Shown piece by piece: positions 8,849 to 14,689 of a stretch of DNA of 21,268 nucleotides. The position numbers and the translations under genes were made by a program. The notes under the pieces were generated by a model. It ran no database searches, was not told where the DNA came from, and worked only from the letters and a program-made list of their open reading frames with translations. Position 1 is the first letter of the stretch; each line of letters starts with the position of its first letter. This stretch comes from a virus: the IMG/VR virus record IMGVR_UViG_3300042557_000593, positions 1 through 21,268 of that record. One strand, written 5' to 3'.

Positions 8849-9594
8849 GGGTTGGCAAGTTTACGGAAGGTTTGGCTAAATCCGTGTAGCTGCCAAACAT
8901 TTTGTGTATGCCCCCGGTACAGCATGGCCCATAGCGCCGTGTTACCCGTTGTGCAAATGACTTTGTTAGCCTGTCCGATGGCATACAGGGCGGCGTTGAA
9001 GTTCAGGGCAAACTCCGGGCGGTGGGGTCCGGTGGGCATAACGTAGCGGTCGGTGTTCCGCTTGATGCGAGGCAGGCCCGGTAGCGCGATGGTATCGGGG
9101 TACTTGGCCATGAACGCATCATAAAAGTCCTGTTCGTCCGTTTGGACAAGGAAGGGACCGCCTACCTGTTCGGCGGCGTCAAAGGCGATTTCGTAAGACG
9201 TGGCGGGGACTTCCTTTGCCTTGTCGTTGCCCCTGTATAGCACTACGGTACGCTCCCCGATGATTGTGCGGAAGTGGGACGAACGGGCAAGGACGGCGGC
9301 GGATGGGCGGCAGACCTGCATAGCGATACGCGATAGCTGCGGGATGCCGATGTCATCGTACCAGCCGTATTGCCAGCCGTGGTCATATTCGGTGTATCCT
9401 TCGGGCTGGTCGTAGTCGCCAAGTAGGAGCAGGTCGATCCGTTCGCCGGGTGTGGCGCGATATGCCTCGAATTGCGATGCGCTATCTATGCCCGTTGGCC
9501 ATTGGCCATGTTCGCGGCGGTACTTGGCGGCTTCGTGAAGCCGAACGGATAGGCAGGACGTTAGCCCCGCGTTATGGGTTACGGTCAAGGTCAC
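8845..9594 (-). CDS. Putative GT-B-type glycosyltransferase (fucosyltransferase-like)
   Basis: This is a 249-residue protein. The middle contains 'VLYRGNDKAKEVPATSYEIA', then a beta-strand segment 'GPFLVQTDEQDFYDAFMAKY'. The C-terminal part 'VICTTGNTALWAMLYRG' is like the donor-binding loop of GT-B enzymes. The arrangement recalls NodZ/FUT-type fucosyltransferases and related phage proteins, but the identity is uncertain. It is the last of four sugar-related genes, coupled by ATGA overlaps at both ends. Its likely partners are the GT2 enzyme and the FkbM methyltransferase upstream. The substrate could be a virion glycan, host surface polysaccharide or modified DNA; the sequence does not say. 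Confidence 0.6.
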   Translation of the reverse strand: MTLTVTHNAGLTSCLSVRLHEAAKYRREHGQWPTGIDSASQFEAYRATPGERIDLLLLGDYDQPEGYTEYDHGWQYGWYDDIGIPQLSRIAMQVCRPSAAVLARSSHFRTIIGERTVVLYRGNDKAKEVPATSYEIAFDAAEQVGGPFLVQTDEQDFYDAFMAKYPDTIALPGLPRIKRNTDRYVMPTGPHRPEFALNFNAALYAIGQANKVICTTGNTALWAMLYRGHTQNVWQLHGFSQTFRKLANP

Positions 9595-10178
9595 GCGATG
9601 CCGAACTTTTTGTTGATGGGTTGGAACTTGTAGCGGTAGATGTACAGCGCCTTGTCTATGTACTCCTCCCGCTTGAGCAGGCCCGAAGCGGCGAGGCGGT
9701 CGCTGTAATCCTTGTCCTCTGCAAAGCGCATATCGGCGAACCCGATGGCGATGGCATGGGACCGCTTGACCGGGGTCTTATGGTAGATGCCCCGCACGTA
9801 GTCGAACCCGTCGATGTCCTTTTGCCATGTGTAGCGCATGGAAGCGGATGCCATTTCAACGCGGCGGCGGTTCAGGCCGTGGACATCGATACGGAACCCG
9901 ATGCAATCCGGGGCGCTTTCCGTGGCCTTTAGGATGTCATCAACGTATGTCGGGGCTACCCAATCGTCGTCGTCAATAAAGGCGATGTAATCCCCCGTGG
10001 CGCGGGTCAATAGGGCTTGCCGCTTGGACCCGATGCTTATGTCGCCTTTGGGCGCGTCATCGGTCAGGATTTCAACGGGTAGGCCGTCCGACATGGCGCG
10101 AAGGTGGTCCATCAACTTGCGGAACGATGAACGCCGTTCGGGTATCGTTGCCACAAGGATGGACAGGCGCGGGGTCAT
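9591..10178 (-). CDS. Family 2 glycosyltransferase
   Basis: This 195-residue protein opens with 'LSILVATIPERRSSF', a typical GT2 start. It has the metal- and nucleotide-sugar-binding run 'FIDDDDWV' (Asp69-72), and 'RFAEDKDYSDRL' near residue 152 supplies the ED catalytic-base motif. It should transfer a sugar from a nucleotide donor in the cytoplasm; there is no signal peptide or membrane helix. Length is at the short end for GT2 but includes the full GT-A core. It overlaps the FkbM gene and the following glycosyltransferase gene by ATGA. Confidence 0.85.
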   Translation of the reverse strand: MTPRLSILVATIPERRSSFRKLMDHLRAMSDGLPVEILTDDAPKGDISIGSKRQALLTRATGDYIAFIDDDDWVAPTYVDDILKATESAPDCIGFRIDVHGLNRRRVEMASASMRYTWQKDIDGFDYVRGIYHKTPVKRSHAIAIGFADMRFAEDKDYSDRLAASGLLKREEYIDKALYIYRYKFQPINKKFGIA

Positions 10179-10780
10179 GCCACAAAGATAAGGTTCTGAC
10201 GGTTCGATGCACTTAGCTTCATTCCGGCATCCGTGCAGTATTTCACCATTGCATCGAGGTCGCCGTGTTCGTGTTCGATGATAAGCATCTTCACGCCCAG
10301 CGCGGTCAGGTCCATTTGCTGCAAGATGTCGAGATCGGCCCCTTCCGCGTCAATGCTCACAAGGTCGAACGTCTTATGATCGGACAACGCCATAAGCCCG
10401 CCGAACGTGATTACGGGAACGTCAACGGGCGTGAACTGCTCCGTCCATATGTGCGTGTGCGCTTCGTGCAAGGTGGATAGCAGCGCGATGTCGCCTTTTT
10501 TGAGGTGTTCGCCGCTTTCGTGCAGGGTCATGGTGCCCGCCTTATCCGACACGGCCACGTTGACGCATTGCACACGGTCGCCAAAGATGGACATATTGGC
10601 CGTCAGGCGGGTAAAGGCTTGCGGCGAGGGTTCCACGCACACACCAGACCACCCGCGTTTAGCACAGGCGTAGACGTTGGACAAGGTGCGGCCATCGTTG
10701 GCCCCGATGTCAAGGAACGTGCCTTTGCGGTTACCAAAGTGGCGCCGGATAAGTAGCTCCTCGTTGTTTTGGCTGTTCAT
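10175..10780 (-). CDS. FkbM family methyltransferase
   Basis: This is a 201-residue SAM-dependent methyltransferase. Motif I is 'TFLDIGANDGR' (residues 21-31), followed by 'VCVEPSPQAF' with the ribose-binding Glu50 and 'FDLVSIDAEGADLDIL' further on, which is the FkbM signature. FkbM enzymes usually O-methylate sugars or polyketides. Between two glycosyltransferases it most likely caps or decorates a glycan. It overlaps both neighbours by four bases. The family call is firm; the substrate is inferred. Confidence 0.88.
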   Translation of the reverse strand: MNSQNNEELLIRRHFGNRKGTFLDIGANDGRTLSNVYACAKRGWSGVCVEPSPQAFTRLTANMSIFGDRVQCVNVAVSDKAGTMTLHESGEHLKKGDIALLSTLHEAHTHIWTEQFTPVDVPVITFGGLMALSDHKTFDLVSIDAEGADLDILQQMDLTALGVKMLIIEHEHGDLDAMVKYCTDAGMKLSASNRQNLIFVA

Positions 10781-11445
10781 GGGAAGCCGAGCGCCTTTCG
10801 GCTCTCGTAGGTTTTGCGGTCTACGTTGTAAAGCTTGTTATTCCTGCGGTAAAGTTCGTCCCTCTTTTGCTTTCCGCCCCAGTCCGGGCTTTCATTCCGA
10901 ATGATGCAACGGCCCGTGTAGATCAGCTTTTTGTCCCGTATCCCTACGTCCGTGGCTTCGTTATCGCACCAGAGGCTCAGGTAGTCGGGGTGGTAAATAT
11001 ACCCAAGCCGCTCATATTCCAATCGTCCAAGGCACTGAATGGTATTGATGCGGTCCTGTCTGCCGTCCCACCACCACAGCGCCCCGTCCGTGTGCGTGAA
11101 GTTTTCGCGCATGGCAATGCGGATGGCCTCATCATACCCGTGTTCCTGCGGGATCATGTCATCCGATGCCAATAGCACGATGTCCCACGGGTCGGGCGCT
11201 TGGTCCATGTTAGCGTTGACGGCTTCTATCTTGGACTTGTTAGGCCCGTAGTGGATGGATGCCGATACGCCACAGCCGTTGATAGCGGCAAGTACATCCG
11301 GGCGGCGCATGGTTCGATCGTCAAGGTCGGCACTGATCAGGATATGGCAAAGGTTAGGCCGCACCAACTTCGATGCGTAGATGCCCAGCGTTTCAATGAA
11401 TTGCTTAGGCCGGGCGCGGGTCGGGTACTTTATGAGCAGATGCAT
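10777..11445 (-). CDS. GT-A-type glycosyltransferase
   Basis: This 222-residue protein starts 'MHLLIKYPTRARPKQF' and has the donor/metal-binding segment 'WDIVLLASDDMIPQ' (SDDM at 94-97), typical of GT-A fold transferases. 'GYDEAI' and 'LWWWDGRQDRI' follow, as in related phage and bacterial glycosyltransferases. The C-terminus is basic and ends 'YESRKALGFP'. It is the first sugar enzyme of the cassette, overlapping the nuclease gene upstream by 16 bases and the FkbM gene downstream by four. No signal peptide is visible, so a cytoplasmic role is expected. Confidence 0.75.
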   Translation of the reverse strand: MHLLIKYPTRARPKQFIETLGIYASKLVRPNLCHILISADLDDRTMRRPDVLAAINGCGVSASIHYGPNKSKIEAVNANMDQAPDPWDIVLLASDDMIPQEHGYDEAIRIAMRENFTHTDGALWWWDGRQDRINTIQCLGRLEYERLGYIYHPDYLSLWCDNEATDVGIRDKKLIYTGRCIIRNESPDWGGKQKRDELYRRNNKLYNVDRKTYESRKALGFP

Positions 11446-11741: not shown

Positions 11742-11910
11742 CGGTCGGGCCGGGTTCGTTCATGCCGCCATTTGCCCACCACATCAGCGCATAGGACAAC
11801 GCCCTTTGGTACAACTCCACCTGCAAAGGCGTGACGGGTTCGGCAATGCCGCCAATGTCAACGCGCTTCATGGCCCAAATGTACCGCCGTATGATCTCAG
11901 GTCCACTCAC
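11728..11910 (-). CDS. Small protein of unknown function after the loader-like gene
   Basis: This gene encodes 60 residues if translation starts at the GTG at 11910, which overlaps the previous stop as GTGA. The frame is open further upstream, but that would need a long overlap, so the coupled GTG is preferred; an ATG at 11871 is the other choice. The sequence 'EIIRRYIWAMKRVDIGGIAE' followed by 'ELYQRALSYALMWWANGG' is helical and unlike families I know. It overlaps the nuclease gene by 14 bases. Confidence 0.6.
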   Translation of the reverse strand: MSGPEIIRRYIWAMKRVDIGGIAEPVTPLQVELYQRALSYALMWWANGGMNEPGPTDEKG

Positions 11911-12368
11911 TTGTTCTCCAGTTTCCGCCGTAGCTGGTCGATCATCCGATCCTTCCACCCGGCATCGTGTTCCGTCCGGTCCAAATATCCCGCCCCTAAG
12001 TTATCACCAGTGAACTTATTCCGGGCCGCATCGCTCTCGACATGGCCCAAAATCTTGGCCTCATGCGTCTGCATCCATTCGGCAATCTGCGGATAGTTCA
12101 GCGACCCGTAGACCTTACCGCTGGTCATCCCGTCCCGGATTGCCATAACCACGCTCTCACAGCTACGGTGCCCCCATTGCCCCATCAGCATCCTTGCCCA
12201 CATTGCAATCACGTTAGGCGGGTTCTTTCCGCCCACCATGGCATCGGCCTCGGTCAGGATCAGCACGGCCCACGCCTCGCTCACCTCGCTGCCGTAGTCC
12301 TTTACCATGCGGCGGATGGGGTAGCTATTGGTCCCAGTAGCTTGGTCCAGCGTCACGTTGACTGGCAT
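11907..12368 (-). CDS. Replication accessory protein, probably helicase-loader-like (lambda P analogue)
   Basis: This gene encodes 153 residues from the ATG at 12368, which overlaps the initiator gene by 44 bases; an ATG at 12308 is an alternative. The helical core 'VIAMWARMLMGQWGHRSCES' and 'SGKVYGSLNYPQIAEWMQTH' resembles small Bacteroidetes phage proteins that follow the initiator (DUF6633-like pattern). There is no Walker motif, so it is not an AAA+ loader. The call rests on synteny: initiator followed at once by a small helical protein, as in lambda O-P. The function is inferred. Confidence 0.6.
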   Translation of the reverse strand: MPVNVTLDQATGTNSYPIRRMVKDYGSEVSEAWAVLILTEADAMVGGKNPPNVIAMWARMLMGQWGHRSCESVVMAIRDGMTSGKVYGSLNYPQIAEWMQTHEAKILGHVESDAARNKFTGDNLGAGYLDRTEHDAGWKDRMIDQLRRKLENK

Positions 12369-13209
12369 GGAACTCGGCGTTAGCTTGAATAGCCAGTCGC
12401 GCCTTTTCTGCAACGCTAAGCTGTTCGGGGCGGACTTGTCCGGTAGGTTGTTTGATGGCATTGATGATCTTCGCTAAGTTGTTGAACAGGTAGGTAAAGC
12501 TGGTGGCGTTCTTTCCGTGGAACGCATCCTCCTTCACTTTTTTGATCAGAGCAAGAACGGACTTAGTGGCATCGTATTCGGGGTACAGCACCTCCATTTT
12601 CCGAAGCAAGTTGTAACAGGCCCGGCGCTCCTTTGCCACGGACCCATCAAGCAGGCCATCGTTCGCCAACTTCAAAGCCTCCCAGCACTCGTTGATACGG
12701 GCATCCCCACGGACCTCGGCGCTTGCGCCAGATGCGTTAGCATCTTCTTCTTTCTTTTCCTTCTTGCTTTCTTTCCTTCTTTCTTTCTTTCCTTCTTCTA
12801 TTGTGGCCGCTTGTTGGCTCACTTGTTGGCCGCTTGTTGTATCACTTGCTGGCCGTTTGCTGGCCGTTTGTTGGTCGGTTTGTTGGCCGCTTTGATGTTC
12901 TACCTGCTGATACTTTGCCCAATTGACAAGGGTTAAAAGCGTGAATTTGTTGGCCGCTTTGGTGGCCACATCTCCGCTCGACTTCAGTTTGTCAAGCGTT
13001 CGCCGAAGTTTCGCACGGGACCACCCCAACGTGTCGGACATTCGGTCCATGGATGTGATCATTTGGCCGGGTTCCACGTCGATACCCTTCCACCTTGCCG
13101 CCTTCCAGTTTGCCCGCATGAGCAAGTGAATGAGCAGGCGAAGACAGGCATCGTCGTGATACCACTCCCATTCGGGCAGCGACCTGTGAAGGCGAACGTA
13201 ACCCTCCAT
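12325..13209 (-). CDS. Phage replication initiator (winged-helix, lambda O-like)
   Basis: This is a 294-residue protein. Residues 1-105 form a winged-helix DNA-binding domain of the replisome-organiser type ('YVRLHRSLPEWEWYHDDACL', 'MDRMSDTLGWSRAKLRRTLD'). A Gln/Ser/Thr-rich linker (about 105-140) and a run of Lys/Glu/Arg (about 143-158) follow, then a helical C-terminal domain that probably contacts the loader or helicase. The linker-coding DNA carries tandem 11-12 bp repeats and a homopurine tract, so the gene probably contains the origin, as lambda O does. The start at 13209 lies just after the previous stop. Confidence 0.82.
   Translation of the reverse strand: MEGYVRLHRSLPEWEWYHDDACLRLLIHLLMRANWKAARWKGIDVEPGQMITSMDRMSDTLGWSRAKLRRTLDKLKSSGDVATKAANKFTLLTLVNWAKYQQVEHQSGQQTDQQTASKRPASDTTSGQQVSQQAATIEEGKKERRKESKKEKKEEDANASGASAEVRGDARINECWEALKLANDGLLDGSVAKERRACYNLLRKMEVLYPEYDATKSVLALIKKVKEDAFHGKNATSFTYLFNNLAKIINAIKQPTGQVRPEQLSVAEKARLAIQANAEFHASQRDAGPSYWDQ
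12742..12969. repeat. Iteron array and homopurine tract: probable replication origin inside the initiator gene
   Basis: On the plus strand the unit TTGTTGGCCGCT recurs with variation at 12801, 12811, 12823, 12834, 12846, 12857, 12868 and 12880, and again at 12947 and 12959. Spacing is 10-12 bases, close to one helical turn. Because this spacing shifts the reading frame, the encoded protein is not a clean repeat, so the DNA itself appears to be conserved. Next to it, about 12742-12800 is an almost pure C/T run (A/G on the minus strand) that could serve as an unwinding element. The arrangement matches lambda ori within O. Confidence 0.7.
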
Positions 13210-13594: not shown

Positions 13595-13673
13595 ACGCCT
13601 TGCACACGTAGCCGATGATAGTGGATAGCCAACGCGTCACCACTTGGTCGCTTTTGCAGCATGGGCAGGTCAT
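13572..13673 (-). CDS. 33-residue zinc-ribbon protein
   Basis: This short gene starts at the ATG at 13673, overlapping the methyltransferase stop as ATGA, and ends with TAG at 13574-13572. The protein begins 'MTCPCCKSDQ' and ends 'VCKACGHKWLV', giving two CxxC pairs separated by about 18 residues: a minimal four-cysteine zinc ribbon. The exact coupling to the methyltransferase and the intact Cys pattern make it convincing despite its size. It may bind nucleic acid or a partner protein; no function is known to me. Confidence 0.72.
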   Translation of the reverse strand: MTCPCCKSDQVVTRWLSTIIGYVCKACGHKWLV

Positions 13674-14689
13674 GCCTCTTCGGTGTCAAGTTCGACCTCT
13701 TCCGCATCGAAGTTCAGCATAGGATCACCCTCGCCATCAAAGCGGCTCTTCACTTCCTTGAGGTTGCGGATAGCCTGCTTAAAGTAGCTATCCTTTAGCT
13801 CGATGCCGATGGCCTTGCGGCCCATGCTGACGGGGCTGTAAACCTCCGAACCTACACCCATGAACGGGGTCAGGACCGTTTCGCCGGGATTGCTGTAAAG
13901 CTCCACGATGCGGTCGATCACGTCAAGCTGCAAAGGGTGAACGTGCTTTTCGTCGTCCTCTTCACGCGCCTCTTTGAACTTCAGCACGTTGTCAATACGG
14001 ATGTCATCCCATACGCTCGAAGCGTACCGCTGCCAAATGATGTGCGATAGCTTGTTGGTCTTCGGATCCTTGTGATCCTTGTACTTTGCGCGAAGCTGCT
14101 CAAAGGTGCCGTACTTGTCCTTCATCATGGGCAGTATAGGCGTAGCCCCTGCGTAGTGCTTTAGCCCTGTCGGGTGCGTTACGGGAACTTCGTTTTCGCC
14201 AGCACGCTTGAATATCAGCATATAGTCAGGCATTGCCGTAAAGCATTCCGTGCTATCCTCTACGATCAACTTGTGCATCAGGCTCCGCACCATTGTACGC
14301 ATCCGCACCTTCAGCGGCTCTTTCCAAATGGTCACCCGGTTACGATACGCGAACCCGTGCTTTTCGTGCAGGCGGATGATCTCGTGCGGGAAGTCCCAAA
14401 GCTCCTCCGTCTTGCTGTTCATCACATCCGTGCAATGAACGGCGGTAATGCGCCCCGGCTTTGTGACCCGCGCAATCTGAGCAATCAGGAACTCATATTG
14501 CTCCATGAACTGCTCTTTGCTTTCGCAGTTGCTAAAGTCATTTTCCGAGCTGCTGTAATTGTACAGACCTGCGAACGGCGGGCTGTACACGCTTAGGTCA
14601 ATCGACTTGTCCGGCAGTGTTGGCAGGACGTACATACAATCGCTATTGTAGATAGCGAAGTCATCGGTAATCAGTTGTTGCTTAACCAT
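13670..14689 (-). CDS. DNA methyltransferase (N4-cytosine/N6-adenine, beta-type order)
   Basis: This is a 339-residue protein. The catalytic motif 'SVYSPPFAGLYNY' (SPPF at 36-39) comes first, and the SAM-binding motif 'TPFMGVGSEVYSP' with 'KAIGIELKDSYF' lies near the C-terminus (about 280-305). That is the order of beta-class amino-methyltransferases. SPPF is known from N4-cytosine enzymes such as M.PvuII, though some N6-adenine enzymes are similar. No restriction endonuclease is adjacent. It begins 3 bases after the helicase gene, so the two probably act together. Protection of phage DNA or marking for replication are both possible; specificity cannot be read. Confidence 0.88.
   Translation of the reverse strand: MVKQQLITDDFAIYNSDCMYVLPTLPDKSIDLSVYSPPFAGLYNYSSSENDFSNCESKEQFMEQYEFLIAQIARVTKPGRITAVHCTDVMNSKTEELWDFPHEIIRLHEKHGFAYRNRVTIWKEPLKVRMRTMVRSLMHKLIVEDSTECFTAMPDYMLIFKRAGENEVPVTHPTGLKHYAGATPILPMMKDKYGTFEQLRAKYKDHKDPKTNKLSHIIWQRYASSVWDDIRIDNVLKFKEAREEDDEKHVHPLQLDVIDRIVELYSNPGETVLTPFMGVGSEVYSPVSMGRKAIGIELKDSYFKQAIRNLKEVKSRFDGEGDPMLNFDAEEVELDTEEA

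Follow-up and report, generated by a model that had tools for sequence, protein, structure and literature searches.

The window, by which we mean the whole stretch of viral DNA analysed here, is a virus record of 21,268 bases with no completeness estimate. On its minus strand, an open reading frame at 12325-13209 encodes a protein of 294 residues that we identified as a replication initiator from its PHROG match and its AlphaFold model. In a profile search, residues 1-156 matched PHROG 2514 (DnaD-like helicase loader) with an E-value of 2.1e-26, and the PHROG families matching this protein are DnaD-like helicase loaders and replication initiation proteins. The codons of the DNA-binding domain (residues 1-102) occupy 12904-13209 on the minus strand, as judged from homologues and from AlphaFold, whose block-mean pLDDT is 94-98 over residues 21-100. 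With 50 sequences from the window and its related loci as input, AlphaFold predicted a confident winged helix-turn-helix in which helix 2 spans residues 54-61, the recognition helix residues 65-78, and the two wing strands residues 81-85 and 90-94. Residues 105-143 were predicted to be disordered and the C-terminal part to be helical. No match to the C-terminal DnaD domain (PF07261 / TIGR01446) was detected in that C-terminal part, and we therefore claim PHROG 2514 membership for the N-terminal domain only; the domain was found in two relatives (L010 and L095). Pfam and NCBIfam searches of the window protein returned only chance matches. The best sequence match among solved structures was a helix-turn-helix of the FadR family, in which the residues equivalent to the proposed contact positions of the initiator presumably touch bases.

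The next gene (11907-12461, minus strand) encodes a product of 184 residues that had been described as loader-like. Homology lends this label no support: no relative of the product could be detected in named phages or families, and no loader homology was found; it matches no family and can be called a helicase loader by position only. In relatives, the gene that follows the initiator encodes DnaB, a DnaC-like protein, a lambda P-like protein (PF06992), a G39P-like protein (PF11417) or a primase-helicase. Between the replication genes and the terminase, at 9591-11445, we observed glycosyltransferase-like and FkbM-like methyltransferase proteins, for which only the translations were read.

The initiator gene of the window contains nine units scoring at least 8/11 against CGGCCAACAAA, as written on the strand of the gene; the preliminary description had given the plus-strand form, TTGTTGGCCGCT. 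Seven recognisable copies and one eroded slot make up an array at 12799-12889. In the direction of the gene, all on the minus strand, these are CGGCCAACAAA (11/11, 12879-12889), CGACCAACAAA (10/11, 12867-12877), CGGCCAGCAAA (10/11, 12856-12866), CGGCCAGCAAG (9/11, 12845-12855), the eroded slot (about 12834-12844), CGGCCAACAAG (10/11, 12822-12832), GAGCCAACAAG (8/11, 12810-12820) and a degenerate last copy, CGGCCACAATA (8/11, 12799-12809), with start-to-start steps of 12, 11, 11, 23, 12 and 11. Two outlying copies, TGGCCACCAAA (9/11, 12958-12968) and CGGCCAACAAA (11/11, 12946-12956), lie at 12946-12968 on the same strand. The preliminary description had counted eight tandem and two outlying copies, all in the linker-coding part of the gene. 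The two outlying copies stand, whereas only seven tandem copies are recognisable, and it is the array alone that encodes the disordered linker, the outlying copies falling within the codons of the wing (residues 81-88). No unit scoring at least 9/11 was found in the opposite orientation, and in a repeat scan of the whole window the other top-scoring segments all overlapped the same array. An N6/N4 DNA methylase gene is located just upstream of the initiator gene (13670-14689), and GGCC is present in most of the window iterons. Methylation of the origin by this adjoining enzyme is conceivable, although untested.

Repeats in such a place could be a mere by-product of a Gln/Asn/Thr-rich linker under selection at the protein level, or of slippage, since Q, N, T and K abound in the family's linkers and simple tracts slip, but the window does not behave in this way. 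When the protein was held fixed and recoded by the gene's own codon usage in 300 trials, the recodings had a repeat score of 13.8 +/- 2.2, compared with 27.5 for the actual segment, and none of the 300 reached it; Markov shuffles scored 10.6 +/- 1.8, again with 0/300 at the observed value. Moreover, the series of units runs through codon phases 0, 1 and 2. It had been argued earlier that the spacing is not a multiple of three. This is inexact, as the 12-bp steps are, but the conclusion drawn from it holds because the units occur in all codon phases, so that protein repeats offer no explanation. Finally, the wing copies match the phage's own unit.

Just past the array, a nearly pure purine, A-rich tract at 12743-12798 (minus strand) is a candidate DNA-unwinding element, on the basis of its sequence and of the family-wide composition: across relatives, AT content is 0.76 just past the array compared with about 0.62, and purine content is 0.76. 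A hairpin, AGATGC-TAAC-GCATCT, is found at 12730-12745 (minus strand), supported by its sequence and by over-representation in the family, and a second short inverted repeat, GGCGCAAGCGCC, identified by sequence and folding, at 12718-12729 (minus strand). In the family, inverted repeats past the array were in excess over synonymous recodings (z 7.4). Hairpins of the form C-T[AT][AT]N-G were observed in 17 of 165 genes when 0.95 were expected (approximately 18x), including the window and L014, whose stems differ. Such hairpins, with CTAAAG, CTAACG, CTATCG or CTTACG as loop and closing pair, lie beyond the purine tract in the window, L014, L009, L113, L122, L225, L261 and others. That the CTA is a primase start signal remains speculation. 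The CCCCCTAAAGGGGG hairpin form also follows the array of P22 gp18 (L383). GC skew over the 21-kb fragment was flat or noisy and thus uninformative as support for an origin.

Homologue searches gathered about 370 loci. The training set consisted of 66 non-redundant relatives, and the held-out set of 98 newly fetched genes sharing <80% identity with the training genes and with one another. Named relatives, both phages and prophages, span Vibrio, Staphylococcus, Cellulophaga, Sphingobacterium and gut Clostridia or gut elements. The Bacteroidetes host previously put forward could not be substantiated: Vibrio and others are the hosts of the best named phage relatives, and terminase matches were weak.

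About 160-165 diverse relatives mostly keep the array plan, with a repeat sequence that differs from phage to phage. Over the first 99 nt after the domain in the 66 training relatives, lag-11 identity was 0.533 compared with 0.412 for synonymous recodings (z 21), with a further signal at lag 22 (z 16.5); the upstream control region of the same 66 genes gave no lag-11 signal. An 11-bp linker array beyond the synonymous null recurred in 60 of the 66, each of these genes exceeding z 2 on its own at lag 11 or lag 12. The held-out genes repeated the lag-11 result (0.552 versus 0.416). Upstream of the linker, the family shows three additional copies with centres at about -76, -64 and -52 nt, and these wing copies exceeded both the synonymous null and a foreign-iteron null, with z up to 13 in training and 23 in the 98 held-out genes. 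In two relatives, a viral contig (L043) and a Maricaulis MAG (L094), both with the gene at 2501, the winged helix-turn-helix was kept, but neither the linker nor the fetched flanks showed an 11-bp array; these natural exceptions weigh against the proposed origin.

We then asked which residues of the protein vary with the repeat. In a partial Mantel analysis with overall protein distance removed, residue 66 was the column most tied to the linker iteron (r 0.46, z 13). In the window, codons 65-66 (Arg-Ala; 13012-13017, minus strand), singled out by covariation and by the Mantel analysis, encode the first turn of the recognition helix. About 28 nt separate the end of this codon 66 from the first wing copy, and the linker is far away. 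Codon 66 is therefore outside the repeats, and the link between residue and iteron cannot come from shared codons. In the training set, Gln66 occurred with AA, Arg66 with GA and Lys66 with GG at unit positions 4-5. The held-out genes, in which the register was set with positions 4-5 masked and without hand corrections, followed the same rule: Lys with GG in 12/12, Arg with GA in 21/23 and Gln with AA in 41/47. Taken together, 74 of these 82 genes were as predicted, compared with a maximum of 43 in 5000 permutations. Among the minor classes, Ser was found with GA (4/4) and Asp with CC (2/2), while Asn was divided between CA (5) and AA (4). When column 66 and the wing were left out of the tree, 40 of 46 independent pairs had both members as predicted; a second tree gave 38 of 45, with the bases differing in all 45. 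For these tree counts, a few training genes with a plainly unreliable register were omitted or corrected by hand.

A scan of all column pairs revealed a second link, between residue 54 and unit position 7, and a weaker one between residue 55 and position 8. Arg54 was accompanied by C7 in 15/17 training genes and 24/25 held-out genes, and of 22 independent pairs 16 agreed, none was reversed and 6 were neutral. Codon 54 (13048-13050, minus strand), pointed out by the AlphaFold model and by covariation in relatives, encodes Met in the window. In the model, residue 54 starts helix 2 and residue 66 starts the recognition helix region (65-78). The window thus combines Met54 with C7. Among 12 genes having C7 without Arg54, five, including the window, carry Arg65, and it is plausible that Arg65 stands in for Arg54 in the window's subgroup. 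Two caveats apply: the C7 of the window fits the code only if Arg65 does the reading, and Ala66 falls outside the well-sampled classes, so that its GG is accounted for only loosely.

Arg-G, Gln-A and Lys-G are textbook contacts. Since residues 66 and 54 covary with the repeat, residue 66 across approximately 45 independent pairs, the initiator's own helix-turn-helix is almost certainly what reads the repeats, a conclusion that rests on comparison without a binding assay. One may object that the repeats are bound by a host protein or another phage protein and that the initiator covaries with them only through shared ancestry, both features being common to related genes. We regard this as very unlikely because base switches accompany about 45 independent switches of the residue, the linked residues belong to the opening turn of either the recognition helix or helix 2, and the Arg-G and Gln-A pairs fit the expected contacts. 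The same association bears on the by-product of linker composition or slippage considered above, for the unit sequence follows residues that are encoded outside the repeats. Given the synonymous null, exceeded in the window and family-wide, the codon phases and this residue-base association, we rejected protein-level repeats and slippage and give that reading next to no credence.

Comparison among relatives thus establishes the repeats, their place, selection on them at the DNA level, and the association of residue 66 with bases 4-5 and of residue 54 with base 7. In vitro binding, a filament, melting of the purine tract, helicase recruitment and an active origin in this phage are inferred. We consider it very probable that the initiator gene carries an iteron origin within its own sequence, the start of replication itself being an inference. 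The corresponding claim of the preliminary description is accordingly supported by the residue-base covariation, by the family-wide array and by the purine-rich, AT-rich tract beyond it, with origin firing being inferred. In the mechanism that we propose, the initiator gene would be a self-contained replicon. The initiator would line up on the 11-bp iterons in the wing and linker codons, one per helical turn and on a single face of the DNA, forming a filament that might span about 170 bp. Strain would then be released by melting in the adjacent A-rich purine tract, and the C-terminal domain so presented would bring in the replicative helicase, probably together with the product of the downstream gene.

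The same binding evidence would hold if the iterons were instead operators for autorepression or for plasmid-style copy control, with the origin elsewhere, and many initiators do autoregulate through iterons. We find this unlikely, as the sites are located 240-410 nt into the coding sequence and away from the promoter, a melting-prone purine tract and hairpins adjoin them, and helicase or loader genes come next in relatives. The same layout has been put to the test in pSK41, and there the sites are the origin (PMC5703833). The sites could nonetheless serve autorepression instead of, or besides, origin firing. Returning to the intragenic origin, we lean, with some reservation, towards a fuller reading for this widespread family, in which the wing codons are themselves copies of the sites recognised by the domain, and in which residues 66, 54 or 65, and perhaps 55, constitute a simple base code. 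Protein and origin would then be locked together in one gene, with specificity readable from the protein, and the C-TAAN/TATC-G hairpin past the purine tract may act as a third element, for priming.

It is rare for a phage origin to be predictable from sequence; in this family a single gene is enough to predict an origin and its sequence specificity across very different hosts. The residue-base code amounts to a natural series of matched initiator-origin pairs, which opens to direct test an old question, namely how an initiator can switch origin specificity and still replicate. A further outcome is an explanation for the repetitive Gln/Asn/Thr linker of these genes, and a reason not to dismiss such 'low-complexity' regions.

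The arrangement has parallels in several known systems. In lambda O (ori-lambda) and P22 gp18, the initiator gene likewise has annotated iterons in its linker part, past the DNA-binding domain; an A-rich tract comes next, and after it a helicase-loader or helicase gene. The parallel with lambda ori drawn in the preliminary description is therefore apt for the iterons between DNA-binding and C-terminal domains and for the A-rich tract, but it does not extend to homology with the O domain: the N-terminal domains of O (0.7 bits) and P22 gp18 (0.6 bits) did not match the family profile. Lambda has four 18-bp iterons, in contrast to the 11-bp head-to-tail array found here, and none is annotated in wing codons. 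A Lactococcus lactis plasmid or prophage (L379, gene near 2501) combines the N-terminal domain of the family with a C-terminal domain that by eye resembles lambda O, so that the half that binds DNA and the half that recruits the replisome seem to be recombined as separate modules.

By its N-terminal domain, the window protein also belongs with the phage replisome organizers and DnaD-like loaders (PHROG 2514, 186 and 7498; TIGR01714), of which it matches PHROG 2514. It gave no match to TIGR01714 (phage_rep_org_N), which was matched weakly in L018 and L009, the best relative reaching 16.1 bits against a cut-off of 49.8. The note attached to TIGR01714 reportedly mentions direct repeats in the DNA that can serve as a phage origin. 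Among the RepA_N proteins (pSK41 and the phage-like hybrids pPR9 and pUSA03), in-gene linker sites are a shared feature, whereas no wing copies are described there. RepA of pSK41 has a winged-helix N-terminal domain, a DnaD-like architecture and four Rep boxes in the centre of the repA gene, within dispensable linker codons (PMC5703833). A fold search of the window initiator returned initiator N-terminal domains 4pql and 4pt7 among weak matches (E about 0.05), and Pfam gave no match to the RepA_N domain (PF06970) in the window protein. Membership of RepA_N, lambda O, P22 gp18, Lactococcus r1t ORF11 and pUSA03 RepA was rejected by profile. In the PLE satellites of Vibrio cholerae, the DNA-binding domain of RepA and the origin type change together, and swaps demonstrated cognate specificity (PMC8263062). 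The PLE iterons, each of about 30 bp, are semi-palindromic and occupy non-coding DNA (PMC8263062), in contrast to the intragenic 11-bp units observed here. Neither the 11-bp wing-plus-linker plan nor a residue-base code was described in the literature searched, from which most subscription papers were absent, and older studies of lactococcal, lactobacillus and staphylococcal phage origins may already contain part of these findings. The principle of an intragenic origin is established from lambda O and pSK41 RepA; to our knowledge, the wing-coded iterons, the family-wide 11-bp array plan and the residue-base code are new.
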